Source: a virus. From it: DNA of 22,274 bases. The DNA lies in IMG/VR virus record IMGVR_UViG_3300020056_000961, positions 1 through 22,274 of that record. One strand, given 5' to 3'. The position numbers and the translations under genes are program-made. Every line of letters begins with the position of its first letter. The first letter of the stretch is position 1. The notes below the pieces were generated by a model. It was not told the DNA's origin, did no database searches, and was given only the letters and a program-made list of their open reading frames with translations. Positions 1,350 through 19,326 of the stretch are shown piece after piece.

Positions 1350-1944
1350 GTAATGCCGCCAAGTTAAAACTGATTGTTACTCTTTCCTGATCTGCCATTT
1401 GTTGGTCAACACGATGCATCAACCAACTAGGAAATAAAATTAATCTACCTGTTTTAGGTTTTATACTGTAGCTAGATGTATTATATGAATTTGCTTCATT
1501 AGTTTGCATCCAAGGCCAATTACTATTTTTGTTAGAATCTAAAAATGTTATTGGAGAATCGTTTTCATTTGCTTGTACATAATACACGCCACTCCAAGTA
1601 GCAGGAATATGATTATGTTCAGGATGAACTCCAAACTGTCTTGTAATACTAAACCAGCTACCTGTAAACATTATTCCGCCATCTATACCAATTAACTTGT
1701 TAGCAGATTTGCCACATTCTTCAATAAATGACTTTAATTCTTTACATTCTTCCATGTCTAGTGCTTGTGTATACGGATTGTAATTTGTATAACTATTAGC
1801 ACTATAAGGAATAGGATTTTGGTCTTTTGACTCAATATCTTTCATCTTTGGTACTAGTACATCTGCTAAAATGTCTGCACTAGGAAATTCTGTACCTAGT
1901 AAAGGCACAGGAAATAAATCTAATTTGTCCATATTAATTTGCAT
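1336..1944 (-). CDS. 2OG-Fe(II) oxygenase-like protein (TIGR02466/prolyl-hydroxylase-like)
   Basis: A 202-aa protein with the double-stranded beta-helix signature of 2-oxoglutarate/Fe(II) dioxygenases. HPEHNHIPATWSGVYYV lies around residues 107-123. A later RLILFPSWLMHRV (about 165-178) supplies the distal His, and the Arg/Ser-containing ERVTISFNL strand is where 2OG normally binds. This layout (HxH or HxN near SGVYYV, then LFPSWLMH) matches the TIGR02466-type phage oxygenases known from marine T4-like genomes. Substrate is unknown; candidates are protein side chains or modified bases. ATG at 1944 overlaps the upstream phosphoribosyltransferase stop by 11 nt and has AGGA 4 nt upstream. An alternative ATG lies 12 nt further in. 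Confidence is high for the fold, low for the reaction. Confidence 0.8.
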   Translation of the reverse strand: MQINMDKLDLFPVPLLGTEFPSADILADVLVPKMKDIESKDQNPIPYSANSYTNYNPYTQALDMEECKELKSFIEECGKSANKLIGIDGGIMFTGSWFSITRQFGVHPEHNHIPATWSGVYYVQANENDSPITFLDSNKNSNWPWMQTNEANSYNTSSYSIKPKTGRLILFPSWLMHRVDQQMADQERVTISFNLAALHEQK

Positions 1945-2467
1945 ATGTTCCTACGTTCTCCCAAGGATATACTAACCATACATCCTTTTCTAATTTGTTA
2001 ACTTCGTCACATGAATAAGAAACTTGATCAAACTCACTAGACAAATTTTCTGTTAAAACTGCAAAGCGTACATTATTACCCCAAACATTATTCCAATCTT
2101 CATGTCTTGGTAAACACCCTGCAGGCCAATCTTCTTTGATCCAATTAAATGTTGCACCGGTATCATTAATATCATCTACAATAAGTATATTCTTTTTCAT
2201 ATCTGTAGCGTCACTGTCTGGATATCCGAGTGCATCAACAGCCATCCAATTATTACTTTCTAAACCATGTACAGCATCACGTAAACTAACTTTAAGTGCT
2301 TCGCAACGTATACCAGTCATGTTACTTATTATTGTGGCAGGAACATTGCCGCCTCTTGTGATGCCAACAATATAATCTGGACGCCAATTGTCTGTGTACA
2401 TTTGATTAACAATGCTTACACACATACGTTCTATATCTTCCCAAGTATAAATTTTTTTATCTAGCAT
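1934..2467 (-). CDS. Type I phosphoribosyltransferase-domain protein
   Basis: A 177-aa protein with the PRPP-binding loop ILIVDDINDTGATF at about residues 94-107, preceded by strand DYIVGITRGGNVPA. Together these are the type I PRTase core (hypoxanthine/xanthine/orotate PRTases and regulators). Such enzymes transfer ribose-5-phosphate from PRPP to a base, usually in purine or pyrimidine salvage. The specificity hood is not recognisable, so the base is unknown. The C-terminal part is Trp/Asn-rich and may be lineage-specific. The gene starts inside the 3' end of the cupin gene (11-nt overlap) with GAGGA upstream and couples to the 2OG oxygenase. Given the deazaguanine-like genes nearby, a role in modified-base salvage is possible but only inferred. 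Confidence 0.85.
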   Translation of the reverse strand: MLDKKIYTWEDIERMCVSIVNQMYTDNWRPDYIVGITRGGNVPATIISNMTGIRCEALKVSLRDAVHGLESNNWMAVDALGYPDSDATDMKKNILIVDDINDTGATFNWIKEDWPAGCLPRHEDWNNVWGNNVRFAVLTENLSSEFDQVSYSCDEVNKLEKDVWLVYPWENVGTYAN

Positions 2468-2939: not shown

Positions 2940-3270
2940 CAATACCTCTTTCCTTTAGTTTGCCTTTGTAGTCTTGTTCACATAATTTGTATACATGTTT
3001 AAAATTATTATATGCTTTTGCTAGTGCTGGATATTCTTCACACATATTATTAACTCTATCTAAACTAGGCATAGTATCTTCAAATGCTTTTTGATCCATA
3101 CCAGTAAAAGTTATGTTGCTTAAATCTATAGTATCATCAATTCCAATTGAATAAGTTGTATCTATAGGAGTAGTTGTTATAGTTGATGTACTCATATTTT
3201 GCCAGTCAATACTATAATCCGAATATCCTACATCAACAGTCAATTTATTATCATTGTTTGATTGTGTCAT
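2920..3270 (-). CDS. Acidic protein with SSB-like DDEIPF C-terminal tip, unknown function
   Basis: A 116-aa protein from ATG 3270, chosen because GGAG lies 9 nt upstream. A longer frame starting at 3366 would overlap the glycosyltransferase deeply. The N-terminal half is Ser/Thr/Asp-rich and probably disordered. The C-terminal half (DRVNNMCEEYPALAKAYNNF... onward) is helical with aromatic residues. It ends in GIDDEIPF, matching the acidic tip of bacterial single-stranded DNA-binding proteins (DDxIPF), which recruits replication and repair partners. No OB fold is visible, so it is not itself an SSB homologue that I can recognise. I infer a possible adaptor role, but convergence on a short acidic tail by chance cannot be excluded. 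It overlaps the glycosyltransferase 3' end by 20 nt. Confidence 0.7.
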   Translation of the reverse strand: MTQSNNDNKLTVDVGYSDYSIDWQNMSTSTITTTPIDTTYSIGIDDTIDLSNITFTGMDQKAFEDTMPSLDRVNNMCEEYPALAKAYNNFKHVYKLCEQDYKGKLKERGIDDEIPF

Positions 3271-4294
3271 ATAGCTGGGCTCCGCTGAAGAATTCTTTAT
3301 TAAGTTTCGTAACTTGTTTGTTAATGCTTGGTAGATAGTCTTCATAATTTTCCATATAGTTAACAATTAGTTTCATTAGTTCACCTTTGCATTGATTATA
3401 ACAGAAATAATCTTCAGTCCATGAACTAGGATATTTAAACTCTGGTAGTGCCATTTCTGAATAACTTAGTCTATCAGGAACCATAGGAATAGCATCTACT
3501 AGTGCGCCTTCATACCAACTGATACCTAGTGTTTCTTGTAGGTTAGCACTAAACACTAGTTTAGCTTCGCCTAGCAGATTATGATATTCATTTTTACTTA
3601 ATGACTGTTCTTGGCACACAACAAATTCATATTGGGGAAGTTGTGTTTTAAGATCTCTAAAAATATCAACTTGTTTCTCAGGAGCAATACGATGCGGAAA
3701 GAGTATAAGATCCCTCTTCTGCATACCTTTGTAACTGTCTAAACTATTCTTAAGATACTCCATAGGCCAACCAACACGATGTGGTTTGCTACCTTCAATA
3801 TCTAAACTTTCTGCAAACAAGTCTATGTGGAATTCACTTGCAAAGAAATTATCGTCGAAACAATCATACATTGCTTGTTCAGTATTTCTTACCCAAGGTT
3901 TATCACCTATTAATCGTCCCAAGAAATCATGGGGGTCATAACTACCAGCATGCCACAAGCCACCAATGCGAACATCAACACCCAATAGCTCTGCCATGTA
4001 GCGTAGTTGTAACACTGTAGGATTCCAGGCATCGGTATACAAAAAATAATCGCCAGTCTTGATTTTCCCTTCACAGAACATTTCTCCTATCTGTTCAAGT
4101 TGTTTTGACTTGTACACATTAGTACCACCAAAATTGAGAAAAGCCCCAGGTGTTGTAGCCTGAGGTGTTTCTCCACCACTGATGGTAACTACCTTTTCGT
4201 TTGTAGATCGTTGAAGTTGACGTGGAAGATGTTCCTTCCACTGTTTAGTATAACGTGTATCAACAGCTTCGATATCTACTATATAGATAGTCAT
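3251..4294 (-). CDS. GT-B glycosyltransferase, tRNA-queuosine mannosyltransferase (GTDC1)-like
   Basis: A 347-aa protein with a C-terminal GT-B/GT4-type half. RDLILFPHRIAPEKQ lies around residues 193-207, and ANLQETLGISWYEGALVDA with IPMVPDRLSYSEM follows around 250-280. The ExxxxxxxE-like pattern binds the nucleotide sugar donor in GT4 enzymes. The order (strand-HR-x-EK, then a Tyr/Leu helix, then E-x-G-x-x-x-x-E-A followed by PxRLxYxE) resembles GTDC1/QTMAN, which mannosylates queuosine in tRNA. This is a comparison from memory, not an alignment. ATG 4294 overlaps the upstream stop as TAATG and has GGAG 6 nt upstream. Lying downstream of the QueD-like and TGT-like genes, it could glycosylate a deazaguanine base. 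A general phage glycan or DNA glucosylation role is the alternative. Confidence 0.75.
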   Translation of the reverse strand: MTIYIVDIEAVDTRYTKQWKEHLPRQLQRSTNEKVVTISGGETPQATTPGAFLNFGGTNVYKSKQLEQIGEMFCEGKIKTGDYFLYTDAWNPTVLQLRYMAELLGVDVRIGGLWHAGSYDPHDFLGRLIGDKPWVRNTEQAMYDCFDDNFFASEFHIDLFAESLDIEGSKPHRVGWPMEYLKNSLDSYKGMQKRDLILFPHRIAPEKQVDIFRDLKTQLPQYEFVVCQEQSLSKNEYHNLLGEAKLVFSANLQETLGISWYEGALVDAIPMVPDRLSYSEMALPEFKYPSSWTEDYFCYNQCKGELMKLIVNYMENYEDYLPSINKQVTKLNKEFFSGAQLYDTIKQ

Positions 4295-4506
4295 TAATTT
4301 CTCCGATAGTTTTGCTTCCTTGCAGTATTTCTAGCTTTGGCACGTAAGTAGTTTTGATGCTTTTTATAAGCCTGCCAAACCGGTGCATCTTCTTTGTATA
4401 AATCTTTTTCATTAAAGACTTTACCTTCGAAGCGACAATAATCGCGATACTTGTCCAAGTCGTTAAACACTTTAGTATACGCTTCACGATTAAATTTAAT
4501 ATCCAT
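4294..4506 (-). CDS. Small basic protein, unknown function
   Basis: A 70-aa protein, MDIKFNREAYTKVFNDLDKY..., rich in Lys, Arg and Tyr with a basic C-terminus (KARNTARKQNYRRN). It has no recognisable domain. The charge pattern could suit nucleic-acid binding, but this is inference. It sits between the QueD-like gene (15-nt gap) and the glycosyltransferase, whose ATG shares the last base of its stop (TAATG). The GGAG used by the glycosyltransferase lies inside its last codons. A 107-aa reading in another frame over 4260-4583 has poor packing and was not called. Confidence 0.7.
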   Translation of the reverse strand: MDIKFNREAYTKVFNDLDKYRDYCRFEGKVFNEKDLYKEDAPVWQAYKKHQNYLRAKARNTARKQNYRRN

Positions 4507-4521
4507 TTTACCATATAGTCC

Positions 4522-5040
4522 TTATGCTTTGTTTGATGGGTAAGAGATAACACAGCCATTTTCTCCGTCTTCGGAGACTTCAATTTCTACAAAGCGGCCG
4601 GGGTACTTTGCATTAATTTTTTCATATAGTTCGTCAGCAATCATTTCACATGATTTGTAATCTAAAAGAAGCACTTCACTGTCGGTTGAGCTCTGTCCTT
4701 CACTTCCTTGATTATTTGTTCCGTTATCGGTTCCTGAGTAGAGTCTTTCGAGCCATCGTTTGAACTGGATGAACTCGATGTCTCTATCGTTGTGGTACAC
4801 TCCGATACGCACCCTGAAATGGAAAATATGACGATGAGGATAACCAAGAAACGAAACATCATCCCAGTCACCTGTCGCAAGTTTTGGATCATCTAGTGCC
4901 GCAGGATACTTGTGTATCCCTTCCTTTTTGAATGTTACCCATATGGATCTATTTACCTTATTTTCCATATATTGTTTTTTATCTTCTTCTCGCATCATGC
5001 GTAGCATACCTTCATAGTATCGTTCATTTTGTTTATTCAT
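4522..5040 (-). CDS. QueD-like/6-pyruvoyl-tetrahydropterin synthase-fold protein (divergent)
   Basis: Up to 172 aa. The T-fold layout is visible in order. FKKEGIHKYPAAL supplies a first His. GYPHRHIFHFRVRI gives the HxH zinc pair on a beta strand, matching HGHNY of PTPS/QueD. DRDIEFIQFKRWLE corresponds to the MVxDFxxLK helix. KSCEMIADELYEKI followed by VEIEVSEDGENGCV matches PTxExIA and the VxVxET segment. QueD converts dihydroneopterin triphosphate to carboxytetrahydropterin in preQ0 synthesis. A Gly/Ser/Thr/Asn-rich insert (about residues 100-121) interrupts the fold. The start is uncertain: the -10 box of a strong promoter overlaps ATG 5040, so transcripts from it would miss this codon, and ATGs at 4998, 4995 or 4968 are alternatives. 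The fold call is inferred from motifs. Confidence 0.6.
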   Translation of the reverse strand: MNKQNERYYEGMLRMMREEDKKQYMENKVNRSIWVTFKKEGIHKYPAALDDPKLATGDWDDVSFLGYPHRHIFHFRVRIGVYHNDRDIEFIQFKRWLERLYSGTDNGTNNQGSEGQSSTDSEVLLLDYKSCEMIADELYEKINAKYPGRFVEIEVSEDGENGCVISYPSNKA

Positions 5041-5067
5041 TATACGCTCACTTTAGTGGTTTGTCAA
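5039..5067 (-). promoter_or_regulatory. Perfect sigma70 promoter overlapping the QueD-like start
   Basis: Minus-strand TTGACA (5062-5067), a 17-nt spacer, then TATAAT (5039-5044). The -35 lies in the last codons of the 171-aa gene, and the -10 shares bases with ATG 5040. A start near 5032 would lie inside the annotated QueD-like frame, so transcripts from it must use a later ATG (4998, 4995 or 4968) or serve only downstream genes. Confidence 0.75.
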
Positions 5068-5563
5068 GTCCATATTTTGTCCAATCTGTGAATTTTTCTC
5101 TATCCATCAAATCATGCAAACTATGACACCAGACGCCTGGGTTGGTTGCCTTAAAATCTTTATCATCAATTTTCAACATAGTGTTGTAATTCCACAGTTT
5201 CACGTAAGGCACTGGAACACGAAGTTGTGGGATAAAGTTCTCATATTCGGTTAAACCGGATTCTAAAAATTCTTCTGCAAGAGCAATAGGAATATCTAAG
5301 CTACATAATTTATCAGTTGCTAGATATGCTTTGATCATATTTTCCCATGCTCGCCATTCGTCATCTGTTTTAGGATTAAAACTATGATTAGCACCAAAGA
5401 AGATATGTTTAATTCCATCTCCTAATCTTTCTTGTATTTCATTTGCAGGTTGAACACCAGTAACAAATAACGTTGCCATTCCGTATGCAGGAGTTTTTTC
5501 TACTTCACGTCCTACAAAGTAAATAACATCATCTTTTATTCCTTGATTATAATTTCTTTTCAT
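5048..5563 (-). CDS. Conserved-looking alpha/beta protein, unknown function
   Basis: A 171-aa protein. ATG 5563 is preferred over ATG 5569 because AAGG lies 6 nt upstream of it and directly abuts the other. Alternating strands and helices are seen: VIYFVGREVEKTP, TLFVTGV, HIFFGANHSFNP, LDIPIALAEEFLE and VPYVKLWNYNTMLKID. This suggests a Rossmann or partial TIM-type fold. There is no CxxxCxxC, so it is not a radical-SAM QueE. I know of no named family for it, although its consistent position between a TGT-like and a QueD-like gene hints at a shared pathway. Its 3' end contains the -35 box of a perfect sigma70 promoter. It overlaps the preceding 42-aa gene by 17 nt. Confidence 0.75.
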   Translation of the reverse strand: MKRNYNQGIKDDVIYFVGREVEKTPAYGMATLFVTGVQPANEIQERLGDGIKHIFFGANHSFNPKTDDEWRAWENMIKAYLATDKLCSLDIPIALAEEFLESGLTEYENFIPQLRVPVPYVKLWNYNTMLKIDDKDFKATNPGVWCHSLHDLMDREKFTDWTKYGLDKPLK

Positions 5564-5675
5564 CTTCATCCTTAACCATAACGTTTATTTTTACAATACC
5601 TTTTTCATTACTAGCAATAAAAAATTCCAATTTGTTTTCAATAAAAATGGCTTTTAGTTCTTTAAGTGTTATCAT
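5547..5675 (-). CDS. 42-aa small protein, unknown function
   Basis: A short open frame translated by hand. It starts MITLKELKAIFIENK, continues through LEFFIASNEKGIVKINVMV and ends in KDEDEKKL, terminating in TAA at 5547-5549. Its ATG overlaps the stop of the upstream DUF465-like gene as ATGA (5672-5675), the coupling style used throughout the window, and it fills what would otherwise be an unexplained gap. Predicted as one helix plus two strands with an acidic and basic tail. No homology is recognised. It overlaps the start of the 171-aa gene by 17 nt. Coding status rests on packing and lack of stops, not on motif evidence. Confidence 0.55.
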   Translation of the reverse strand: MITLKELKAIFIENKLEFFIASNEKGIVKINVMVKDEDEKKL

Positions 5676-5875
5676 CCTAAACTTTTCAGCTCTCTTTCCA
5701 ATCTATGTATTTCGTCTTTAAACCAAAGTTTTTTAGTTTTAAGCCTATGTATGTTTTCTTCACGTTCGAATGTATTATACATTGTTTTTATTTCGTCGTC
5801 AAGAGCTCTATGTTTCCGATATAGCTCTTGTAAATGTACTGCGATTTTATTGTGTCGCTCCGTGAAGTTGCTCAT
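5672..5875 (-). CDS. DUF465/YdcH-like small coiled-coil protein
   Basis: A 67-aa protein predicted as two helices. The pattern HLQELYRKHRALDDEI followed by RLKTKKLWFKDEIHRLE matches the DUF465 (YdcH) consensus, in which an LxxxHxxLDxEI helix is followed by LKxxKLxLKDEI. The family is widespread in proteobacteria and is small and helical with no firm function. Start ATG 5875 overlaps the end of the TGT-like gene by 29 nt, and its TGA overlaps the next ATG. The resemblance is to a host-type family, so acquisition from a bacterial host is plausible but unproven. Confidence 0.7.
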   Translation of the reverse strand: MSNFTERHNKIAVHLQELYRKHRALDDEIKTMYNTFEREENIHRLKTKKLWFKDEIHRLERELKSLG

Positions 5876-7388
5876 GTTCTAGATCCTCCAGTTTAGTTTC
5901 ATCAAAAGTTTCTTCGGATTCAGTAATTACTTCATTTACTTCAAACAAAGCATCAAAGAATGTACTAGAGTTTACAGTCTTTTTGCCAATTGCACCTCTT
6001 GTACCTGGTATATCCATCCAAAACTTATTGTGTTCTTCTATTAGTTGTAATGATTTTTCTTTACTGTCAGTTGCGAATATTTCTTCCACAACATCTCTAA
6101 AAAATAACCTGTCAAAGCGTTCTTGTACAAGCATGTTTGGAATGATTCCATTGTCGTATTGTCTATTTGCTTCTTGTACTGCATTAATATGACTCCATAC
6201 ATTATGACCCATTTGTATTGCATAACTAAATGAATCCCACGATGTCTTTCCTTCTTTACCAATTTTGTTTAAGTCTCCAGGAGCATAAATGCAAATGTCT
6301 TTTGCACTCAATCCTTTAGTAATTGGAGAATCTAAGAAACTAGAGTGTTTACCTTCTCTTACAAATGCATCAGAAAAAGGAGTAGTGTCCGATGCAAGAC
6401 CTTTGTCATCTATACTAGGAACCATTCTATATACCCATTTTTTTCTATCTTGGGTTTCAAGTTCACAATATATTTGACCATTTGCAGTAGCTAAAAATGG
6501 AGAAGCACAATCAAACGTTGCTGTAAAGTTTTCGTTGTGATGTTTGCGTACTGCTCTTTGAATGTCTGTAAGTAGGGTAGCCCACTCTAGTTTACTTGTA
6601 CCTAAGAAGTGCATAAAGTCATGCAATCCTTTTTCTAATAAACCATCATGTCTAAGAGCTACTAATCTTTTAAGTACAAGGTGAACGTCACACATGTTTT
6701 GTCCACCCATTGACCATCCATTAAAATGATCAGTATATTTTTTAGGATCACAATAGTCTTTCATTTGCTGATACCAATCTTCAGCATCAGCATGATTTTC
6801 ACCTTGTAATACATTTAAGAATTTACAATTACCATTACGATTTTTCATAAAGTAATCGTTATTGATGCGTGTAGCGTTAACAGCATCTTGATAATTATCA
6901 ATTCCAGTTGCTTTTGCACCTGCAGGAGAACGAGAAACCCAAGCAGGAATATCAAGGATCATACCATAATCCATGTAAGCATCCATCCAAGTTAATACTT
7001 GTTCACGCTTCTTTTTTGCTTTAGGACAGTTTGGATCTTTCCAATCACCTTCCCAAACGCCCTTACCAATCTGGAAGCCACCTGAATCACCTAGCAACCA
7101 ACTATGGTTCCTATCTCTATTACGCACCATATCTTCTTTTGGTGCATCTTTATTAACATCTAACTCTGCATGACCTGCTGAATACAAACTCCAATTGTAT
7201 TGAAACAAACCAGCATTAGGTTCAAGCCAGTTCATACTTTCTACTTCAACAGGAAAGTGTTTAGGTATACGACTGCGTTCTACATATTCTTCACGTCTTT
7301 GTTTGCCTACAAAAGTAGCAAAAAATCCGCTAATAGCTGGAAGAAAAATTGCATAGTCTTTTTGTGATGCAGTTAGATTTGTGTTCAT
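5847..7388 (-). CDS. Queuine/archaeosine tRNA-ribosyltransferase (TGT)- or DpdA-like base-exchange enzyme
   Basis: A 513-aa protein. ATG 7388 is chosen because it overlaps the stop of the 52-aa gene as ATGA; an upstream ATG at 7412 lies inside that gene. The TIM-barrel TGT landmarks appear in order: LLGDSGGFQIG with Asp near residue 101 (base-recognition Asp), MILDIPAWV, FLNVLQG, NGWSMGG (binding-loop Gly), MHFLGTSKLEW (for PxYLMGVG) and ATFDCASPF with Asp near 293 (nucleophile position). TGT swaps guanine for a 7-deazaguanine in tRNA; DpdA relatives do this in DNA. The CxCxxC zinc site of bacterial TGT is not visible, favouring a DpdA-like or archaeal-type divergent enzyme. The C-terminal 40 residues are Glu-rich. 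Confident on family, unsure whether the target is DNA or RNA. Confidence 0.85.
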   Translation of the reverse strand: MNTNLTASQKDYAIFLPAISGFFATFVGKQRREEYVERSRIPKHFPVEVESMNWLEPNAGLFQYNWSLYSAGHAELDVNKDAPKEDMVRNRDRNHSWLLGDSGGFQIGKGVWEGDWKDPNCPKAKKKREQVLTWMDAYMDYGMILDIPAWVSRSPAGAKATGIDNYQDAVNATRINNDYFMKNRNGNCKFLNVLQGENHADAEDWYQQMKDYCDPKKYTDHFNGWSMGGQNMCDVHLVLKRLVALRHDGLLEKGLHDFMHFLGTSKLEWATLLTDIQRAVRKHHNENFTATFDCASPFLATANGQIYCELETQDRKKWVYRMVPSIDDKGLASDTTPFSDAFVREGKHSSFLDSPITKGLSAKDICIYAPGDLNKIGKEGKTSWDSFSYAIQMGHNVWSHINAVQEANRQYDNGIIPNMLVQERFDRLFFRDVVEEIFATDSKEKSLQLIEEHNKFWMDIPGTRGAIGKKTVNSSTFFDALFEVNEVITESEETFDETKLEDLEHEQLHGATQ

Positions 7389-7543
7389 TCTGGCGTTACC
7401 CACGGATAGCAAGGAATAATGCTTTGTTTACAATAACGTGCATTATCAACTAACAAAAAAGGAACCCCAACAATAAAAAATGTAATGATTAAAAATGCTG
7501 GTAATAGTCCTTTTGTTGTGCAATAGTTTTGTTGTTCACTCAT
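7385..7543 (-). CDS. 52-aa single-span membrane peptide
   Basis: A short frame read by hand, starting MSEQQNYCTTKGLL and continuing PAFLIITFFIVGVPFLLV before ending in CYPWVTPE. It starts directly after the sliding clamp stop (TAAATG) and ends in TGA that overlaps the TGT-like ATG, so it exactly fills the space between two real genes. One strongly hydrophobic segment of about 20 residues predicts a single membrane span with a short soluble N-terminus. It has three Cys residues. The Shine-Dalgarno is weak (AGAG about 8 nt upstream), suggesting translational coupling to the clamp gene. Function unknown. Confidence 0.6.
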   Translation of the reverse strand: MSEQQNYCTTKGLLPAFLIITFFIVGVPFLLVDNARYCKQSIIPCYPWVTPE

Positions 7544-8272
7544 TTATTTGCTCTGTGCTGGCAGAATATAATCATACTTGACCATACCACTGTCTACTGA
7601 AATCATCATAGCACCTTGATCTGAAATGCTCATAGTTAAATCACCATCCAAGCTCAAAATGCTTTGCACTTGTGCTACAGGCCAACTCCAAGTGTGTGCA
7701 AGTGTTCCTTCAATACCATGTTGGAATACAAATTCACCTGCGTGTGTGCTTGCATCACCAAATGCAAATACCAAGTTACCGTCCTTTGTGCTTACATTAA
7801 ATGTAGGCTCTTCACTGTGTGCCGCACTCATTAACTTCATTCTTGCAATTGATGCTACACTTGGTTGAAAAGTTACACTCCATTGTGCGCCTTTAAATTT
7901 TACAGTTTTAAGTTTTTCTTCAATAATTGCTTTATTCATAAAGCGATAATCATTTTCAAAATCGCCTGCTGTATTTTCAAAGTGAATGTGTGTAGGAACA
8001 ACTTCACCATTACGCTCTGCTTCAACTACTTGAATCTTTGCATCTTTTTGATACTCTGGATTCTTAAGGTGTAGTGCTAACTTATCTAAGTTAGGCATAC
8101 CAAAAGTTCCTTTAAATTCAGCTACTGGCGAGTGTGTACCTCCGCTTAAAATAACTGAACGGTCTTCTGCCATTGAGTCAATAGCAGTGCCTTCTTCGTT
8201 ACTAATTTTAACAAGACTAAGAAAACCTAGTGCATGTGTATGAGCAACGATATCTTGTAAAATGTCTTTCAT
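7544..8272 (-). CDS. 45: Sliding clamp, DNA polymerase accessory protein (gp45-like)
   Basis: A 242-aa protein resembling T4 gp45 (228 aa), the trimeric PCNA-like ring that tethers the polymerase and, in T4, also activates late transcription. Clamp-like features are two repeats of beta-rich sequence ending in MVKYDYILPAQSK, a typical last strand, and an N-terminal helix DILQDIVAHTHALGFLSLVKI. ATG 8272 is preferred over ATG 8284 because GGAG lies 6 nt upstream of it and is inside the longer reading. A perfect sigma70 promoter sits just upstream (8296-8324). The gene is near the polymerase gene but separated from it by a sugar-activation cassette. Family assignment is by overall pattern, so moderately strong. 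Confidence 0.8.
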   Translation of the reverse strand: MKDILQDIVAHTHALGFLSLVKISNEEGTAIDSMAEDRSVILSGGTHSPVAEFKGTFGMPNLDKLALHLKNPEYQKDAKIQVVEAERNGEVVPTHIHFENTAGDFENDYRFMNKAIIEEKLKTVKFKGAQWSVTFQPSVASIARMKLMSAAHSEEPTFNVSTKDGNLVFAFGDASTHAGEFVFQHGIEGTLAHTWSWPVAQVQSILSLDGDLTMSISDQGAMMISVDSGMVKYDYILPAQSK

Positions 8273-8273
8273 A

Positions 8274-9017
8274 TTATTCTCCATTTGTAAAGTTTATTAT
8301 ATTATCTAACTTGTTGTTTGTCAAGACTTTTTCTATACTATATTTAGGTTTATAGCCTAAACCCTTCATTCTATCCATATTTGCACAAGTCCAACTACGT
8401 TCATTTGGTGTATTTAGGCGAATGGGCAAGTCTGGTGCAAAGTCTGATACCTTAAAAGGATGTCCTGATCCAATATCTACTATCCCTGTGAATGTGCTTC
8501 TAATTAATAATTCTATTGCATCACATACATCTTCTATGTGTACAAAATCTCTGTGATGATTTGTTACATATTCTAATTCATTATCAAATAATTTTTGTAG
8601 GAACATTCCTTTTCTAGGCTTTTCATCATATACAGTATGAAATCTCATTCCCAATGTATTTGGATATCTTTCAGCGGCTTCTTCTACAATAAACTTACTT
8701 GCCGCATATGGATTTAAATCCGGTTCATATGCACTACTTGAACTTGCATATAATATTCTTGTGTCAGGATAACGTGCAAATATTCTTTTACTTACTTCTA
8801 CATTATTACGCCAATATCCTCCAGGATCTGTAATACTTTCTCTTACACCACTTTTACCTGCAAGATGAATAATTAAATCAAAATTTTCATTTAATTCACA
8901 AGTTTTTAGATCTTGACCGTCTTTTAAATCAAATCCAACTACACTGTTTTCTTTTTTAAGCCTAGTTAATAATCTACTACCTATATAACCTCTATGGCCT
9001 GTTAACATGATGTGCAT
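8274..9017 (-). CDS. NAD(P)-dependent SDR epimerase/dehydratase (sugar nucleotide)
   Basis: A 247-aa protein with an N-terminal Rossmann motif, MLTGHRGYIGS (GxxGxxG, residues 4-14). The strand LIIHLAGKSGVRES follows, then ASSSSAYE with the catalytic Ser/Thr region, and YAASK near residues 104-108, the YxxxK catalytic pair. These define extended SDRs such as UDP-glucose 4-epimerase and dTDP-glucose dehydratase. Those families average about 310-340 aa, so this copy is short, mostly in the substrate-binding C-terminus. ATG 9017 is used because GGAG lies 7 nt upstream; the longer reading would need TTG at 9020. It overlaps the phosphomannomutase-like gene by 26 nt. With its neighbours it likely makes or edits a nucleotide sugar. 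Exact substrate unknown. Confidence 0.85.
   Translation of the reverse strand: MHIMLTGHRGYIGSRLLTRLKKENSVVGFDLKDGQDLKTCELNENFDLIIHLAGKSGVRESITDPGGYWRNNVEVSKRIFARYPDTRILYASSSSAYEPDLNPYAASKFIVEEAAERYPNTLGMRFHTVYDEKPRKGMFLQKLFDNELEYVTNHHRDFVHIEDVCDAIELLIRSTFTGIVDIGSGHPFKVSDFAPDLPIRLNTPNERSWTCANMDRMKGLGYKPKYSIEKVLTNNKLDNIINFTNGE
8296..8324 (-). promoter_or_regulatory. Perfect sigma70 promoter upstream of sliding clamp gene
   Basis: Minus-strand TTGACA (8319-8324), a 17-nt spacer, then TATAAT (8296-8301). It is embedded in the last codons of the SDR gene. Transcription near 8289 would give a leader of about 17 nt before ATG 8272 with GGAG inside it. This supports the shorter clamp start and separate early control of the clamp. 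Confidence 0.85.
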
Positions 9018-9708
9018 CAAGTTTCTCCCATGTGTCTTGCCAACCAGTTACTTGGTAAGCAAACCCTAAGTCATTTTCTATAATGACTTTCTTTAAAGGA
9101 TAATCGTTACCGAACTTATCCATCCTATCACCAAAAAAGTATAAAACATCATTGTAATCAAAATCGTTTACAATTTGACTTTTGTCTTTTCCTATTGGTG
9201 CTATATCAATACCCGTTTCGCCGCCTGGTCTTGCATCTAATGTTGGAAATTCTAATTTAAATAAATCAGCTATTGTATCTCTTTCATTATGAGCTTGATC
9301 GTATTCTACATACAGTTTGCGTTCGTCATGTGTTGCATTACGTCCTACAACACTAAAATTAATCATACCAGGACGTTCTTCTATATGTAAACCTGTACGT
9401 AAAGAAAAAGAACTTTCTTCTAACTTATCTTCTAACCATGTTCTAGCAGAAACTGGTAACTTCCAATCATCTGTTCTAACATTTCGGCCATTTTCCCAAA
9501 CGTCATTACCGGAACAGTTATATACACGTTCAACTGCATTACAAAGAACTGTACCTAGTTGTTCTTCTGTTTTAGGATAATCGCTACCTGTTATTAAATA
9601 TACATTGTTACTGTATACAAAATCTAAAAACCAGTATTTAAATTTATGATCAATAAATCCTCTACTAGGGGTTAAAGTTCCGTCTACATCAAAAATATAT
9701 CTATTCAC
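8992..9708 (-). CDS. Eukaryote-type phosphomannomutase-like HAD enzyme
   Basis: A 238-aa protein, about the usual 245-250 aa of PMM1/2-type enzymes. HAD motif I is IFDVDGTLT (Asp7 nucleophile, Asp9 general acid). The alpha-PMM-type cap is seen as CSGNDVWENG, ERPGMINFSVVGRNA and GGETGIDIAPIGKDKSQI. The HAD motif IV region is YFFGDRMDKFGNDYPL. This block order matches eukaryotic phosphomannomutase (GNxxWxNG, GMLNxSPxGR, GGxxxxDxxPxGxDK, FFGDxxxxGxND), not the bacterial ManB family. The reaction would be mannose-6-P to mannose-1-P; a phosphatase is the alternative. The start is GTG at 9708 with GGAG 8 nt upstream, overlapping the cytidylyltransferase stop by 8 nt. It probably feeds the SDR enzyme. 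Confidence 0.85.
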   Translation of the reverse strand: MNRYIFDVDGTLTPSRGFIDHKFKYWFLDFVYSNNVYLITGSDYPKTEEQLGTVLCNAVERVYNCSGNDVWENGRNVRTDDWKLPVSARTWLEDKLEESSFSLRTGLHIEERPGMINFSVVGRNATHDERKLYVEYDQAHNERDTIADLFKLEFPTLDARPGGETGIDIAPIGKDKSQIVNDFDYNDVLYFFGDRMDKFGNDYPLKKVIIENDLGFAYQVTGWQDTWEKLDAHHVNRP

Positions 9709-10105
9709 AAACTCTTCTCCTTAAATCTGAAGTGCTGAAACGATGTTCTCTTTTATTATAGTATAGATCTATTCCTCTTTTAAGACAAATAGATCGTCCT
9801 GTAAATGTTTTGTTTTTATACTCTTCACCTAATATTCTGACATCAATTGGATACATAGATAATAGATCTTCTAAATCTCTTTCAGTAGCATATGGAATAA
9901 TTTCATCAACATATCCGACTGCTTTAAGTTGAGTGTAGCGTTCAACTACAGTCTGTACAGGAGCATTTTTTTCTTTTCTATCTACACTAGGGTCAATTTG
10001 CAATCCGCATATAAGATAATCACACTGTTCTTTAGCTTCGCGCAACATAATTACATGTCCAGCATGTAACAAATCAAATGTACTACAAGTAAATCCTACT
10101 TTCAT
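9701..10105 (-). CDS. Glycerol-3-phosphate cytidylyltransferase-like nucleotidyltransferase (TagD-like)
   Basis: A 134-aa single-domain cytidylyltransferase, the normal size of TagD/GCT. The HxGH nucleotide-binding motif is residues 14-17 (FDLLHAGH). The strand YLICGLQIDPSVDRKEK follows, then GEEYKNKTFTG, and the C-terminal HRFSTSDLRRRV matches the RTxGISTTxI motif, with Ser-Thr and Arg contacting the CTP phosphates. The enzyme would activate an alcohol- or sugar-phosphate as a CDP derivative. A strong GAGGAGG sits 4 nt upstream of ATG 10105, and the start overlaps the upstream stop as ATGA. Together with the mutase-like and SDR genes it forms a compact sugar-activation cassette. Whether the acceptor is glycerol phosphate or a hexose or heptose phosphate is not clear. 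Confidence 0.85.
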   Translation of the reverse strand: MKVGFTCSTFDLLHAGHVIMLREAKEQCDYLICGLQIDPSVDRKEKNAPVQTVVERYTQLKAVGYVDEIIPYATERDLEDLLSMYPIDVRILGEEYKNKTFTGRSICLKRGIDLYYNKREHRFSTSDLRRRVCE

Positions 10106-10353
10106 TTGTCCTCCTCGGGTAATTTAATTACGTTGTCTTTTGTTAACATATTATCTTTAATGTCGTAAACTTGTTCGCTTTTAATCATGCCTATAATAGT
10201 GTTAGTCAGGTCAACTTCTCTCCGGAGATAGCCAATCTTGACTTGTAATTTTTGCAATTCTTCTAGATAAAATTCTAGTTCTTTCTCTTTACGTAACTTC
10301 TGTTCAATAAAGTCAGTTATTAGTATAAGTTTTTGTTCTTCACTCAATTTCAT
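10102..10353 (-). CDS. Small coiled-coil protein, unknown function
   Basis: An 83-aa Lys/Glu/Leu-rich protein with a heptad-like pattern (FIEQKLRKEKELEFYLEELQ onward), predicted as a long helical coiled coil through about residue 55, then an acidic tail. No family recognised. Its ATG overlaps the polymerase stop as ATGA (10350-10353), and it contains the strong Shine-Dalgarno used by the downstream cytidylyltransferase gene. A structural or regulatory small protein co-expressed with the polymerase is plausible but not supported by motifs. Confidence 0.75.
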   Translation of the reverse strand: MKLSEEQKLILITDFIEQKLRKEKELEFYLEELQKLQVKIGYLRREVDLTNTIIGMIKSEQVYDIKDNMLTKDNVIKLPEEDK

Positions 10354-13022
10354 ACATCTCCAAAATCAAACAAACTATGGAATGTGTTATGCTGTTTTGT
10401 ATCTTCAAGATTGTAATTAAGCACACCAATTAAATTATCTAGTTTGTTGTCAATGATTGTTTCTTCCATTGCCGCATCATCAAACGGAAGTTCTTTAAAC
10501 CAATCTGGTAGACGCAACTGATCAGTTGGATATGCAACACTAGTATAACCCAGCGGATTCTGCTTGAGCTTGCACACAATAACTTTCATACCATCTACAA
10601 TCTCTTGCGAATACTTGTCTCCGTTCATACGCTTGAGTGTATTCCAGTTGATGCTTGCTCTAACATGTCCTGGCATGTTTGCTTTGCCTTGCTTTTCTTC
10701 AAGTCGTTGATAGTGTCCAATTTTGTTAGCACGTTTAGGCGAACCTTTTTCAAATCCTGGACGTTCTGAAAATTCTTTTCTAAATTGTGTAATGCGTTCT
10801 AGAATATCTTTTTCATCTTTTTCTTGCAGTACCATCATAAGTACTTCACTTAAAAACTCTTGCATAAACACAGGTGTATCTGATCTACGCAAGTCTAAGC
10901 CCATTGCTTTTACTTTACCCGGCTTTCCATCTACATCAGAACGGAAACCTTCTACATCATACACTAGTGCGGCATAACGTTTCTTTGTAATGTATAGTCC
11001 GCTTTCAGCAACAATTTCTCTACCTGCCGCAATAACATCACTTCTTGATTCTGGGCAGTGAAATGCTTCAGCCATAAAGTCACTAAATGTACTATTTGCT
11101 TCATCTGCTATTTGATCATAAAGTGTGATTACATTTTCTTTTGTCCAAGGCAATTCTCCTCTATCAATTTGTTCTTTTAGAGTAGGATATGCACTAAAAT
11201 ATACAGAATCTGTATCACCGTATATAACACTTTGTCCAGTGTGATCATATGTACCAGTAATAACTTTGTTTACTTCTGCACTCATATGTTTAACAATAGT
11301 CCTACCTGACAATGTAGTTGATTGTCCAATGCGTTTATCAAAGAACCTACAACCAGGATTCAAAATAGCACCATACAAACTATTTAGGTTAATTTTCTTT
11401 ACTAGCTGACGTTTATCCCAAAACGCAATTTCGATATCATTTCCTGCGTCTTTTGCTTTCTTAAGCATTGCCTGTAATTCTTTACGTTCTGAATACCAAC
11501 GCTTTAGGATACCTGGAATAACACCTTCAAACTCTGTTGTAAATATTGTACCGTTTGAACTTAGCATCCAGGGCATGTTACTATCAAATATAAGTTTGTT
11601 GATTTCAGCACCGCTCATTACACGACTGTCGCCATTTTCAAAATCAACAGTAATAGAAACATCTTTACGTTTTTCCATAACTGCTTCATACTCTTCTGTA
11701 CTAAAACGTCCTTCCCAACTACCTGCAAAACTCTTCTTTTTAAGTGTCATATCTTCATGTATACGTGCTTCTGTCATCACAGGACGTAGTTGTCCTACAA
11801 TAGTTTCCGGCGCCATGTTAAGAGCTCTAATTACACTAGGATACAGACTGTTCAAGTCCATTGAACCAATCCATTTATGAACTCCTTTTTTAGGAAATGC
11901 AACATAAGCACCTGCGGCCGCTGTATTTTCATCATCACGTTTTGGTCTATTAGGAACTTGTAGTCCTCTGTGATGTGCTTCGTTAATGATTGCTTGTTCT
12001 GTAACTGCTACTGCACCCATAGTTGTCTGTAGCAAAACAGTATTTGCGTGTGCAAGTTCGTTACTAAGATCAATAAATCTTAGTTTTTTGTCCAGCTTGT
12101 CCAGTAGTGCAACGTCTTGTCGGTTGTATTCGATAAACGTTCTGAAGTCATTGTTATAAAGTTGATCGAGTGTGCCTTCATACACAGTTTTCTTTTCACC
12201 AACTTCAAGTTCTCCAATAGCATCAAGCCTGTAAGTGTGTCTTTCTTCATATGTGTATTTACGATATAATTCCAAACTATCTAAATGCACTCTACCTACT
12301 AGGTCATAGGTTTCAGCTGATTTACCATACTTTTCATATTCACGTTTCTTAGGAAGTTGTTTCCACAAACAGAAACGTCTTGTATCATCTTTGCTTAATA
12401 CACGACTTACACGATTAACAGTATACGGAATATCATAACCTTCACTGTTCCAACCTGATATTACATCAGCATCTTCAATTATGTCGAGAAATGCTTGTAA
12501 CATATCACCTTCTTTAGCATAGAGATATGTGTTGTCAAAGTCTTTGACTTGTTCTTGTGCTTGTTCCATACTAAGTGTTTTTGGAGGTACAGCAAAAGTT
12601 ACAAGTGCGTCCATCCACTGTAAATGTACAGTAATAGCAGTGATTGGCATAAAAGGATCGCTTGGATCAGCAAATCCACGTTCCGGATCAAAGTCAGTCT
12701 CAATGTCGAAAAATGCAATGTTTAGTTTAGGAGCGTCTTGATTGAGATAGTTTTCACTTAGACATTGAAAAATTGGATTAATATCTGATTCAAATAAATC
12801 CTTGTTCTTATTAATTGCAACTTCTTTACGAAAGTCTTTGGTGTTTTTACAAACTATTCGTTGTAATGGATCGCCGTAGACACTTTTGTACTTGCCTCTA
12901 GGATCTTTATAATAAAATGTATATTTTGCTGGATATTCGTGGAAATGTCTTTTTCCATCTTTTCGTTCTACGACTCTAATCAGATCTTGGTCGCGATCAA
13001 ATAATGCATCTACGTAACTCAT
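10350..13022 (-). CDS. 43: Family B replicative DNA polymerase (gp43-like)
   Basis: An 890-aa protein, close to T4 gp43 (898 aa). It has the exonuclease motifs Exo I FFDIETDF (near residue 105), Exo II ISGWNSEGYDIPYT and Exo III YNRQDVALLDK. It has the polymerase motifs A DLNSLYPSVI (near 390), B KKINLNSLYGA (near 542) and C YGDTDSVYF (near 604, catalytic Asp pair), plus TKKRYA. Both proofreading and polymerase active sites look intact. The C-terminus carries HSLFDFGDV, like the SLFDMFDF clamp-binding tail of RB69 gp43, consistent with the clamp gene nearby. Start ATG 13022 has GAGGAG 5 nt upstream. A possible promoter lies at 13090-13118. This is the strongest evidence that the window is from a T4-like phage. 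No intein or split is seen. Confidence 0.98.
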   Translation of the reverse strand: MSYVDALFDRDQDLIRVVERKDGKRHFHEYPAKYTFYYKDPRGKYKSVYGDPLQRIVCKNTKDFRKEVAINKNKDLFESDINPIFQCLSENYLNQDAPKLNIAFFDIETDFDPERGFADPSDPFMPITAITVHLQWMDALVTFAVPPKTLSMEQAQEQVKDFDNTYLYAKEGDMLQAFLDIIEDADVISGWNSEGYDIPYTVNRVSRVLSKDDTRRFCLWKQLPKKREYEKYGKSAETYDLVGRVHLDSLELYRKYTYEERHTYRLDAIGELEVGEKKTVYEGTLDQLYNNDFRTFIEYNRQDVALLDKLDKKLRFIDLSNELAHANTVLLQTTMGAVAVTEQAIINEAHHRGLQVPNRPKRDDENTAAAGAYVAFPKKGVHKWIGSMDLNSLYPSVIRALNMAPETIVGQLRPVMTEARIHEDMTLKKKSFAGSWEGRFSTEEYEAVMEKRKDVSITVDFENGDSRVMSGAEINKLIFDSNMPWMLSSNGTIFTTEFEGVIPGILKRWYSERKELQAMLKKAKDAGNDIEIAFWDKRQLVKKINLNSLYGAILNPGCRFFDKRIGQSTTLSGRTIVKHMSAEVNKVITGTYDHTGQSVIYGDTDSVYFSAYPTLKEQIDRGELPWTKENVITLYDQIADEANSTFSDFMAEAFHCPESRSDVIAAGREIVAESGLYITKKRYAALVYDVEGFRSDVDGKPGKVKAMGLDLRRSDTPVFMQEFLSEVLMMVLQEKDEKDILERITQFRKEFSERPGFEKGSPKRANKIGHYQRLEEKQGKANMPGHVRASINWNTLKRMNGDKYSQEIVDGMKVIVCKLKQNPLGYTSVAYPTDQLRLPDWFKELPFDDAAMEETIIDNKLDNLIGVLNYNLEDTKQHNTFHSLFDFGDV

Positions 13023-14479: not shown

Positions 14480-14672
14480 GTAGTTTTTGAAATGCTTCTT
14501 CAAAACCTTCTTCATAGTCTGCTAAAGGAGCACCATTACTTCCGTCAATCCATAATCTTTTGAAATATCCGTTTTGTGAAGCAATAATCGTCTCGTGGGT
14601 AGTGTTTATATGTCCTTTGACCATCCAGAATAAACGATATGCTTCTTTGTTATTTCTTATTTCTTCCTGCAC
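14463..14672 (-). CDS. Small protein, unknown function
   Basis: A 69-aa acidic protein (MQEEIRNNKEAYRLFWMVKGH...) with a C-terminal DYEEGFEEAFQKLLDKYS helix. No family recognised. The start is GTG 14672 with AGAAGG 6 nt upstream, a good Shine-Dalgarno, and it lies inside the 3' end of the 94-aa gene (23-nt overlap). The -35 box of the early promoter is embedded in its last codons. It is the last gene before the promoter and probably belongs to the upstream late-type unit. Confidence 0.65.
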   Translation of the reverse strand: MQEEIRNNKEAYRLFWMVKGHINTTHETIIASQNGYFKRLWIDGSNGAPLADYEEGFEEAFQKLLDKYS

Positions 14673-14934
14673 AGTGGGCCTTCTGGCTGAAACCTTTTGG
14701 ATTATTACAATTTATAGAGCGTTTGTACTTTTTACTCCATTTTTCGTCAACTGACTCGCCCTTTTTCTTTTTAGCCATATTTGTAGCAATAGCATAGATC
14801 GCACCTTCTGGATCCATCCCTTTTTCTTTAGCCCATTTTGCTATATTTTTTTTGGCTTTTGGTTTGTCAAGAATTTTATCAGCAGTCTTGTGTGCTTTTT
14901 TGATTGTTTTTTTGTCTAGTTCCGCAAAACGCAT
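14650..14934 (-). CDS. Lys-rich protein with NC...GFSQKAHC C-terminal tail
   Basis: A 94-aa strongly basic protein. The N-terminal 60 residues form Lys-rich helices (IKKAHKTADKILDKPKAKKN...). The C-terminus is KYKRSINCNNPKGFSQKAHC followed by AGRNKK, with two Cys. From memory this tail occurs in several marine T4-like phage proteins, typically at the end of otherwise unrelated proteins. It follows the 239-aa Cys-rich gene with a 2-nt gap and has a weak Shine-Dalgarno, so it is probably coupled. A DNA-associated or virion-internal role is a guess based on charge. Confidence 0.7.
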   Translation of the reverse strand: MRFAELDKKTIKKAHKTADKILDKPKAKKNIAKWAKEKGMDPEGAIYAIATNMAKKKKGESVDEKWSKKYKRSINCNNPKGFSQKAHCAGRNKK

Positions 14935-14936
14935 GA

Positions 14937-15656
14937 CTACATCTTTACGCAGTTATCAACAGTCTTGCCGCCTTTTTTCTTTGTGCCCATGCGCTTGTAG
15001 CCCTTCCAGCATACTTTGCCATCAACACCTTTTTGCTTTTCTTCTGGTAATGATTTGTAACTAGGCTTACCGCATTCTGGACATAAACTTTCAGCTTCAA
15101 CAATATCTGCTACACTTTCTGCAAGTTTTTTTGATAATACATCTTTATAACTTTCTGATGTAAAACTTGGATTGGATTTCCAATCTGATTGTTGTGCTGA
15201 TGCCGCCGCATTTACTTCAGGAGAACTAGTAATTCCTGCTTTTAGCGGTTTGTTTTTTCTTTCGTAAATTTTATTTCCACAACAACCGCACTCTTTACCT
15301 ACTTCTGCCATTGTATGATTGCCACCGCAGTGTCCACAACCAGCTTTACAACCACAAGTAGCAGGACTTTCTTTAGCTTCGTTTGTTGTTTCGAATTTCA
15401 TGTCGTAATCCATAGCATGATACACAGAACCAATATAGTCTGCGGCTTTTGTAATTTTAGATTGTTGCCAACCTTCCATACCTTCTGCTTCGCTTACACC
15501 TTTTAGCATGTCGTGAAGTTTAATAGCATACTTGGCAATTTTGTATAGTTCTGCTCTTGCCATTTGTACTTCATGATCACGTTCGGCCATGTCAGCCATA
15601 TCAGCAAGTCCGCCTTCTTTAACTGCTTGTTTGTTTTTAAGTTCTGCTTCTCTCAT
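14937..15656 (-). CDS. Mosaic Cys-rich protein with zinc-ribbon-like segments
   Basis: A 239-aa protein. Residues 1-90 form a helical domain (AELYKIAKYAIKLHDMLKG, KITKAADYIGSVYHAMDYD). Residues 98-130 are Cys-rich: CGCKAGCGHCGGNH followed by CGCCGNKIYERKN, which would suit one or two small zinc sites. The C-terminal part has CPECGKPSYKSLPEEKQKG, then VCWKGYKRMGTKKKGG and a final NCVKM. I recognise the last tail from marine T4-like phage proteins but know no function. The start has GGAG 6 nt upstream, and a late-promoter-like GATAAATA lies about 23 nt upstream. This favours late expression and perhaps virion association. Confidence 0.65.
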   Translation of the reverse strand: MREAELKNKQAVKEGGLADMADMAERDHEVQMARAELYKIAKYAIKLHDMLKGVSEAEGMEGWQQSKITKAADYIGSVYHAMDYDMKFETTNEAKESPATCGCKAGCGHCGGNHTMAEVGKECGCCGNKIYERKNKPLKAGITSSPEVNAAASAQQSDWKSNPSFTSESYKDVLSKKLAESVADIVEAESLCPECGKPSYKSLPEEKQKGVDGKVCWKGYKRMGTKKKGGKTVDNCVKM

Positions 15657-15678
15657 AATTAACTCCGGATTACAGTAG

Positions 15679-15686
15679 TATTTATC
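15679..15686 (-). promoter_or_regulatory. T4-type late promoter-like box (GATAAATA)
   Basis: Minus-strand GATAAATA matches the T4 late consensus TATAAATA at 7 of 8 positions and the NATAAATA form described for marine T4-like phages. It lies at the stop codon of the 90-aa gene, about 23 nt before ATG 15656. An initiation site near 15673 would leave a leader of about 17 nt containing GGAG. A single short box can occur by chance in AT-rich DNA. Confidence 0.45.
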
Positions 15687-15958
15687 TACTTTTTCTTTTT
15701 TAAATACTTGTCCTTGATAGCACCTTTTTCTTCTTCGCTTGCGCCATCTCTACCAGCTTTTTGTAGTGCTTCAAACCCTTTTTTACCATACTTTTTAATA
15801 CCAGTATAGCGTTGTAAGCCACTTTCATCAGTTTCAATATCTTCTTTTTTCTTTTTCTTCTTTTTAGGACCTGTTCTTGATTGTATTGCTCCTATAGGCA
15901 TTGCTACAGCCGCTACGCCACCAGCTGTTGTTTCATTTAAAAGTTCACTTATCTTCAT
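15686..15958 (-). CDS. Lys-rich small protein with MKxxELLNE N-terminus
   Basis: A 90-aa protein. The N-terminus MKISELLNETTAGG resembles T4 capsid-targeting peptides (such as MKTYQEFIAE of internal protein III), with a possible prohead-protease site L-N-E before Thr. It is followed by a short hydrophobic stretch (GVAAVAMPIGAI), a run of seven Lys, and a conserved-looking YGKKGFEALQKAGRDGASEE segment. The end is again Lys-rich. The start overlaps the upstream 60-aa gene by 14 nt. I infer a head-internal or core protein but have no direct evidence. The poly-Lys run in an AT-rich genome could simply reflect A-tract expansion. Confidence 0.65.
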   Translation of the reverse strand: MKISELLNETTAGGVAAVAMPIGAIQSRTGPKKKKKKKEDIETDESGLQRYTGIKKYGKKGFEALQKAGRDGASEEEKGAIKDKYLKKKK

Positions 15959-16127
15959 TTTCTACACTTTCTGCAAAGATACCTTCTTTGCGTTCTTGCT
16001 TTAACCATATGTGATCTTTAATAATTAACTGTTTAGACTCTGTGCTACAATGTGGTAACATACCAGTAACCCACAATCCACTTTCATATACACATGGTTG
16101 TATGTATTTACCGTTTATAATTGACAT
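15945..16127 (-). CDS. 60-aa protein, unknown function
   Basis: A 60-aa protein (MSIINGKYIQPCVYESGLWV...) with two Cys and an acidic C-terminus. GGAGAG lies 8 nt upstream of ATG 16127, inside the 3' end of the 2OG oxygenase gene (13-nt overlap), and its own 3' end overlaps the next gene by 14 nt. Packing supports coding. The strand-rich N-terminal part (YIQPCVYESGLWVTGMLP) could be a small beta domain. No family recognised. Confidence 0.6.
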   Translation of the reverse strand: MSIINGKYIQPCVYESGLWVTGMLPHCSTESKQLIIKDHIWLKQERKEGIFAESVENEDK

Positions 16128-16690: not shown

Positions 16691-16709
16691 TGGTACTCCT
16701 TTGCTATAT

Positions 16710-19112: not shown

Positions 19113-19324
19113 TTCTTACGGCTCCTAAATTGTGTAGGTCCAGTCATGTAAGGTTTACTGAACCATAGCTTAAACCAATCAGGATCTCCAGGTTTTACAC
19201 CTAATTCTTTTTCTTTCTTTTTTAACGATGCGGCAGTTAAGCTAGGATTTTCATCTATCTTGTATTCAGTATACCCTGTAAATTCATTTATACCTGCAAG
19301 TTTTTTTAATTCTGCAATGTCCAT
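19109..19324 (-). CDS. Small protein with LKKLAGINE N-terminus, unknown function
   Basis: A 71-aa protein. MDIAELKKLAGINEF has a possible prohead-protease-like I-N-E site at residues 12-14. The rest contains KKKEKELGVKPGDPDWFKLW and FSKPYMTGPT, a Trp/Pro-rich segment that I recall as recurring in marine T4-like phages without a function. The start lies 2 nt after the upstream stop, so it is probably coupled; its stop overlaps the 800-aa gene as ATGA. Basic C-terminus (RSRKK). A late, virion-related role is possible by context only. Confidence 0.65.
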   Translation of the reverse strand: MDIAELKKLAGINEFTGYTEYKIDENPSLTAASLKKKEKELGVKPGDPDWFKLWFSKPYMTGPTQFRSRKK

Positions 19325-19326
19325 AA

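Follow-up and report, generated by a model that had tools for sequence, protein, structure and literature searches.

What do four adjacent genes on one strand of a marine phage contig make together, when they encode a DpdA-like base-exchange enzyme, a protein named here ORFX, a QueD-like protein and a glycosyltransferase? The genes lie in the IMG/VR virus record IMGVR_UViG_3300020056_000961, a sequence of 22,274 bases that was treated as a fragment and is referred to below as the window. It is considered likely that they belong to a phage DNA-hypermodification system, in which a pathway without QueC would supply a 7-deazaguanine, the DpdA-like enzyme would insert it into DNA, and an enzyme resembling QTMAN would glycosylate it. 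An earlier sequence-only reading had placed the DpdA-like, QueD-like and glycosyltransferase genes in one run, and this was borne out: all of the open reading frames (ORFs) are complete and on the minus strand, the ATG lies at 7388 as described, and the three genes were found together in relatives. That reading had overlooked ORFX (5048-5569) and the sugar-nucleotide genes at 8274-10105. None of the four proteins was recognized directly by a Pfam or NCBIfam profile, and direct profile searches with the DpdA-like, ORFX and QueD-like proteins (Pfam, NCBIfam, PDB sequences) were uninformative; family-level alignments were used for profile work instead of the single window proteins.

Relatives were collected from IMG/VR, at least 594 by alignment of the glycosyltransferase and at least 586 by alignment of the QueD-like protein. 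The locus runs on one strand in the order PolB, sugar genes, clamp, DpdA, ORFX, QueD-like, glycosyltransferase, several small genes, FolE and QueE, and because the DpdA-ORFX-QueD-like-glycosyltransferase order held, with few exceptions, across about 140 IMG/VR loci, the landmark motifs are not chance matches. Three locus sets were picked by DpdA type alone, and a locus was counted if it extended at least 3 kb on each side. Set A comprised the DpdA subfamily of the window, set B the subfamily of the phages ACP17 and X1, and set C the small DpdA of phiST, D479 and others. Single-sequence DpdA queries (Shimia, ACP17, Phosso) retrieved almost no IMG/VR relatives, and alignments of divergent members were used for the subfamily searches. 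The QueD-like gene was present in 43/43 loci of set A, 47/49 of set B and 36/36 of set C, and the glycosyltransferase in 42/43, 49/49 and 0/36, respectively; these counts are not independent, as contigs within a set are related and a few occur in more than one set. QueC was found in no locus of sets A and C and in one of set B (L352), which was without the QueD-like gene. The gene after the QueD-like gene encoded a GT4 enzyme in 47 of 48 loci (set A) and in all 64 (set B), and the two glycosyltransferase-bearing DpdA subfamilies share only about 15-17% identity. From these counts, the QueD-like step belongs to these QueC-less pathways in general, with the glycosyltransferase added in two DpdA subfamilies.

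The exclusion of QueC extended to complete genomes. Full-length QueC was missing from 11 of 11 complete phage genomes with the QueD-like gene, and Vibrio phage GR7B, which has a DpdA and a QueC at 204 bits, did not appear in the list of phages that the QueD-like query matched. Partial QueC matches covering part of the profile, e.g. in G006 and W07, were not scored as QueC. Across the three sets, the QueD-like gene was present in 126 of 128 well-covered loci, and QueC in none of these 126. The QueD-like protein matched the PHROG QueD profile weakly (E 0.01) and an unnamed PHROG strongly (E 1e-32), and its family was collinear with a QueD profile (hhalign, 73%). Residues H43, H69 and H71, which match the zinc ligands of QueD, were invariant in 32 homologues; Leu replaces the catalytic Cys before HxH, and the LD of the LDH motif is then followed mostly by Tyr. 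Because the catalytic Cys and His are lost, the protein cannot be assumed to be QueD and, judged by these residues, is a relative of it. The QueD/PTPS fold and HxH zinc pair proposed earlier thus agree with the invariant histidines and the collinear alignment, but not to the point of making the protein QueD. Since it spans three DpdA subfamilies and co-varies with the absence of QueC, not of QueD, its best position appears to be the step that uses 7-carboxy-7-deazaguanine (CDG) and replaces QueC. Cui et al. (2023, Nucleic Acids Research) reportedly predicted that phages lacking QueC carry a CDG decarboxylase, DpdL, which would act on CDG like the QueD-like protein as proposed here. As a separate observation, two phages, Bakedbeans (L179) and MA9V-3 (L184), encode the QueD-like domain as a fusion with unrelated N-terminal segments, and the MA9V-3 partner resembles an HNH-type domain by eye.

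The base-exchange enzyme was characterized by its conserved residues and by profile comparison. The TGT landmarks on which the sequence-only reading relied were real: D109 (in DSGGFQ) and D301 (in FDCASP) were invariant in 28 of 28 homologues. The family aligned with a TGT-domain-annotated protein of phage GR7B (hhalign, 96%) and with the ACP17/X1 TGT-like family (hhalign, 64%), and the Pfam TGT model gave no match to the window protein. The gene adjoins those of the DNA polymerase and clamp, and a clamp-like gene was present in 77 of 80 DpdA-selected loci.

AlphaFold2 models of the glycosyltransferase and ORFX were built from alignments of the window and IMG/VR loci only. The glycosyltransferase model, with a predicted local distance difference test (pLDDT) score of 90, was matched by Foldseek to GT4 enzymes of the GT-B fold (glycogen synthase, BshA, PglA, MshA and PimA). 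The window enzyme carries R202-x4-K207 and E254-x7-E262, of which R202, K207 and E262 were invariant in 41 members, including divergent ones, and E254 in the 32 close ones. Bacterial QTMAN homologues were collected via PF12038 and generic GT4 controls via PF00534. The phage family reached 94-98% by hhalign with 7 of 7 usable QTMANs and at most 53% with 14 generic GT4 proteins, and its profile aligned with the QTMAN profile at 97.9% (E 5e-13) over the C-terminal domain. In the reverse direction, the QTMAN profile found the window, ACP17, PA5oct and alphaproteobacterial enzymes at 92-97%, the X1 enzyme more weakly (31%), and unrelated GT4 neighbors at less than 1%. The resemblance to GTDC1/QTMAN seen in the earlier reading was therefore borne out, being QTMAN-specific in both directions, and QTMAN stood closer than generic GT4 enzymes. 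The N-terminal PF12038 domain was absent from the listed Pfam matches of the 41 members, and the enzyme is therefore classed as QTMAN-like, not as a member of QTMAN. Some relatives have a different GT4 enzyme, itself QTMAN-leaning, in this slot, which would fit an exchangeable sugar step. In many loci of the ACP17-type set (L310-L388), a second GT4 gene stands just before DpdA, besides the one after the QueD-like gene, and an epimerase often follows; such loci could make a disaccharide product.

ORFX sits between the DpdA and QueD-like genes and was conserved nearly as strongly as its neighbors, being present in 92 of 95 PolB-to-glycosyltransferase loci of the close group and in 42 of 43 DpdA-selected loci. 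No family match was obtained for it, and neither ORFX nor the QueD-like family has a name in the libraries searched. Its model (pLDDT 89) shows a partial alpha/beta barrel-like fold and matched no solved structure in the PDB, the best hits being TIM-barrel aldolases at E 0.01. Homologues were found in PA5oct and ACP17, at other positions.

The same genes were traced in cultured phages by Tblastn. DpdA, the glycosyltransferase and the QueD-like gene are contiguous or nearly so in the Pseudomonas jumbo phages PA5oct, Paride and MIJ3, with QueE about 2 kb away; Sinorhizobium phage Phosso has QueD-like, glycosyltransferase, FolE and QueE genes adjacent and DpdA elsewhere; Acidovorax phage ACP17 has a row of QueD, FolE, ORFX homologue, TGT-like, glycosyltransferase, QueD-like and QueE; and Xanthomonas phage X1 has FolE, glycosyltransferase, TGT, QueD-like and QueE. 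The deazaguanine system of PA5oct was noted in a jumbo-phage survey (PMC7824862), where the passages found mention no glycosyltransferase with it. One contig (locus L087/L007), which matches the window at 99.9% identity across some 15 kb, places QueE immediately past the window's left end. FolE was present in 16 of 16 larger related records, and PTPS/QueD in 8 of the 16, including all five complete isolate genomes; some large contigs were without a separate PTPS. The sequence-only reading, which found no FolE, QueE or QueC in the window and called for host or distant phage genes, thus needs amending, in that FolE and QueE are mostly not distant and QueC is absent from the system. The phosphoribosyltransferase of the window has counterparts near FolE in each of the three DpdA subfamilies, and its relative in cyanophage BUCT-ZZ01 is annotated as xanthine-guanine phosphoribosyltransferase. 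In the phage QueE proteins (L007:14398-15318 and 65 others), CxxxC was observed with no third Cys three positions downstream. A C[DN][TS] comes 36-50 residues further along in 66 of 66, which suggests that the radical-SAM cluster motif is interrupted by an insertion.

A scan of 84,980 genomes placed the glycosyltransferase in eight alphaproteobacterial genomes among others, and several of the remaining matches were metagenome-assembled contigs of phage appearance. In all eight alphaproteobacterial loci (L168, L169, L170, L171, L173, L174, L175 and L177), a DpdA homologue and a Vut_1/YhhQ-like membrane protein adjoin the glycosyltransferase. Seven of seven transporters scanned matched only TIGR00697 (queuosine precursor transporter), and two scanned against Pfam matched PF02592 just under its cut-off. 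Convincing full-length QueC was missing in four of the eight genomes (G014, G016, G018 and G019), G017 had short partial matches only, and the QueD-like gene was present in three of the eight. A phage-type integrase was found by Pfam in one locus. These loci are probably mobile islands and may modify bacterial DNA.

Probable sugar-supply genes lie upstream of DpdA in the same operon, in the order nucleotidyltransferase, phosphomannomutase and an epimerase with GDP-mannose dehydratase similarity. The phosphomannomutase matched PF03332 (E 2.5e-23; 83.5 bits against a cut-off of 22.4) and has the DVDGT motif, and the nearest NCBIfam model for the nucleotidyltransferase was the HldE nucleotidyltransferase domain (E 9e-21, below its cut-off). 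Among 95 close relatives that cover the full span, 73 have the epimerase, 66 the nucleotidyltransferase and 40 the phosphomannomutase. This gene content suggests that the sugar is mannose or a derivative. Heptose is a further candidate, the best sub-cut-off NCBIfam models of the nucleotidyltransferase and epimerase being heptose ones, but the HAD protein is clearly phosphomannomutase-like. The location of these genes, at 8274-10105 between the DNA polymerase and the clamp-like gene, is an unusual site for sugar metabolism.

The following sequence of steps is proposed. FolE, QueD and QueE, encoded by phage or host, would make CDG from GTP, as in the established pathway (PMC13329287), and with no QueC there would be no preQ0. 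The QueD-like protein would turn CDG into a second base, either by decarboxylation to 7-deazaguanine or by reduction to a hydroxymethyl form. The DpdA-like enzyme, to judge by its family and its location in the replication module, would exchange guanine in replicated phage DNA for that base, and the phosphoribosyltransferase at 1934-2467 would possibly recycle the guanine released. The QTMAN-like enzyme would place a sugar on the base in DNA, probably mannose or a mannose-derived sugar, from a donor made by the neighboring phosphomannomutase, nucleotidyltransferase and epimerase. The likely benefit would be restriction protection, as shown for other 7-deazaguanines (PMC6884629).

Several points count against this proposal, to which the relatedness of the contigs behind the set counts may be added. 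Plain 7-deazaguanine would offer no obvious C7 hydroxyl or amine for a sugar, which makes this the weakest step; the hydroxymethyl product would offer one. The tie of this DpdA subfamily to canonical TGT is weak, consisting of intermediates and the conserved Asp motifs: alignment with E. coli TGT was collinear but weak (hhalign, 14%, E 0.002), and the CxCxxC zinc motif of canonical TGT was found in 0 of 28 homologues. This motif is also missing from two other phage DpdA subfamilies and is present in the GR7B DpdA. The phosphomannomutase, at 40 of 95 close relatives, is not obligatory, and the transporter matches in the bacterial islands fall below curated cut-offs (TIGR00697 being an equivalog model). 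What the sequences show is gene content and order, family relationships, the tie of the glycosyltransferase to particular DpdA subfamilies and the exclusion of QueC; substrate order, base, sugar, DNA target and restriction protection are inferred.

Other assignments of the glycosyltransferase and its target were weighed. Even if 7-deazaguanine in DNA is real, the enzyme might merely travel with the cluster and act on capsule, lipopolysaccharide, a virion glycan or another DNA base. GT4 and sugar-nucleotide genes do occur in phage clusters that the jumbo-phage survey reads as capsular polysaccharide modification (PMC7824862), and divergent GT4 genes fill the same slot in some relatives. Such a passenger would not be expected from its distribution, however, which is 0 of 36 in the third DpdA subfamily against 91 of 92 in the other two, nor from its constant position next to the QueD-like gene or DpdA in two divergent subfamilies and the bacterial islands, nor from the QTMAN-specific similarity, and this explanation is judged improbable. 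A surface-polysaccharide role in particular was rated down on the set C contrast.

The pathway might also modify tRNA during infection, by TGT-like insertion followed by QTMAN-like glycosylation in the manner of mannosyl-queuosine, and the only QTMAN acceptor known to us is queuosine in tRNA(Asp). Mannosyl-queuosine has been described (PMC12518689); the enzyme of the window, however, groups with DpdA-type proteins of phages and is encoded in the replication module, next to the DNA polymerase and clamp, none of the genes that complete queuosine was seen in the cluster, and the 22,274-base window has no tRNA gene, so that a tRNA target is given little credence. Equally little weight is attached to the idea that the QueD-like protein is no more than a diverged QueD (6-carboxytetrahydropterin synthase), with the pathway ending in ordinary preQ0 or CDG with host help. 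Its zinc histidines, the collinear QueD alignment and the want of a separate PTPS in some large contigs would fit; the missing catalytic Cys and His, the separate PTPS/QueD in five of five complete isolate genomes and the co-variation with QueC absence, not QueD absence, do not.

Features of the window are listed in Table 1. Several ORFs at 14650-20505 were observed to begin with a similar short N-terminal motif (MRFAEL, MKISEL, MKLREL, MDIAEL), perhaps a targeting or prohead signal.

Table 1. Coordinates of the hypermodification candidates and their replication context in the window
Feature	Position	Strand	Remarks
DpdA/TGT-like base-exchange enzyme	5847..7412	-	521 aa from TTG; 513 aa from ATG at 7388
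ORFX	5048..5569	-	173 aa; conserved component, function not assigned
QueD-like zinc protein, probable T-fold	4522..5040	-	172 aa; not QueD itself
GT-B/GT4 retaining-type glycosyltransferase, QTMAN-like	3251..4294	-	347 aa
Eukaryotic-type phosphomannomutase (HAD-IIB)	8992..9708	-	Pfam PF03332; probable sugar-donor supply
Cytidylyltransferase-like nucleotidyltransferase	9701..10105	-	PF01467 E 7.6e-15; probable sugar-donor supply
NAD-dependent sugar epimerase/dehydratase	8274..9020	-	PF01370 E 4e-21, PF16363 GDP_Man_Dehyd E 3e-14; probable sugar-donor supply
Phosphoribosyltransferase	1934..2467	-	PF00156 E 1.7e-9
Sliding-clamp-like protein, directly before DpdA (replication context)	7544..8284	-	Homologue annotated sliding clamp in phage Phosso
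Family B DNA polymerase (replication context)	10350..13022	-	NCBIfam DNA polymerase II models, best E 7.5e-39

The 7-deazaguanine modifications of DNA known to us carry small groups at C7, and a sugar on 7-deazaguanine, if real, would be a new class of hypermodified DNA and a way of disguising DNA from bacterial defenses. It would link tRNA queuosine glycosylation to DNA modification and could explain the restriction or CRISPR resistance of jumbo phages such as PA5oct and Paride. The proposal also gives a role to the conserved QueD-like family and ORFX, and it is approachable in cultured phages. A report of glycosylated 7-deazaguanine in DNA, or of this pathway, was not found in the literature searched, and many subscription papers lie outside that coverage, so that absence is no proof.

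The cluster was compared with four known systems. Phage DpdA systems (Hutinet et al. 2019, PMC6884629) share with it a phage-encoded, TGT-like enzyme with the Asp motifs, FolE, QueD and QueE, and a location near replication genes; unlike them, the present cluster is without QueC, CxCxxC and a Pfam TGT match, and adds the QueD-like paralogue, ORFX and the glycosyltransferase. With QTMAN/GTDC1 (PF12038) it has in common a GT-B, GT4 enzyme, the C-terminal profile similarity and a TGT-family partner gene, whereas the phage enzyme lacks the PF12038 N-terminal domain, its cluster shows no queuosine-completing genes, and its substrate is probably DNA. The bacterial dpd island (Thiaville et al. 2016, as cited in PMC12783734) is likewise a mobile bacterial island with a DpdA homologue; in the alphaproteobacterial islands found here, by contrast, DpdA is accompanied by a QTMAN-like glycosyltransferase and a gene resembling a transporter. 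In T4, cytosine is modified at the nucleotide level by unrelated upstream enzymes before hydroxymethylcytosine is glucosylated, whereas a guanine-derived base would here be introduced by base exchange; the proposed logic, a base modified and then glycosylated on DNA, would be the same. On balance, and with only slightly better than even confidence, the system is regarded as a guanine-based counterpart of T4 glucosylation, found in hundreds of phage contigs and in some mobile bacterial islands, in which interchangeable QTMAN-like glycosyltransferases would act on a QueC-independent 7-deazaguanine in DNA.

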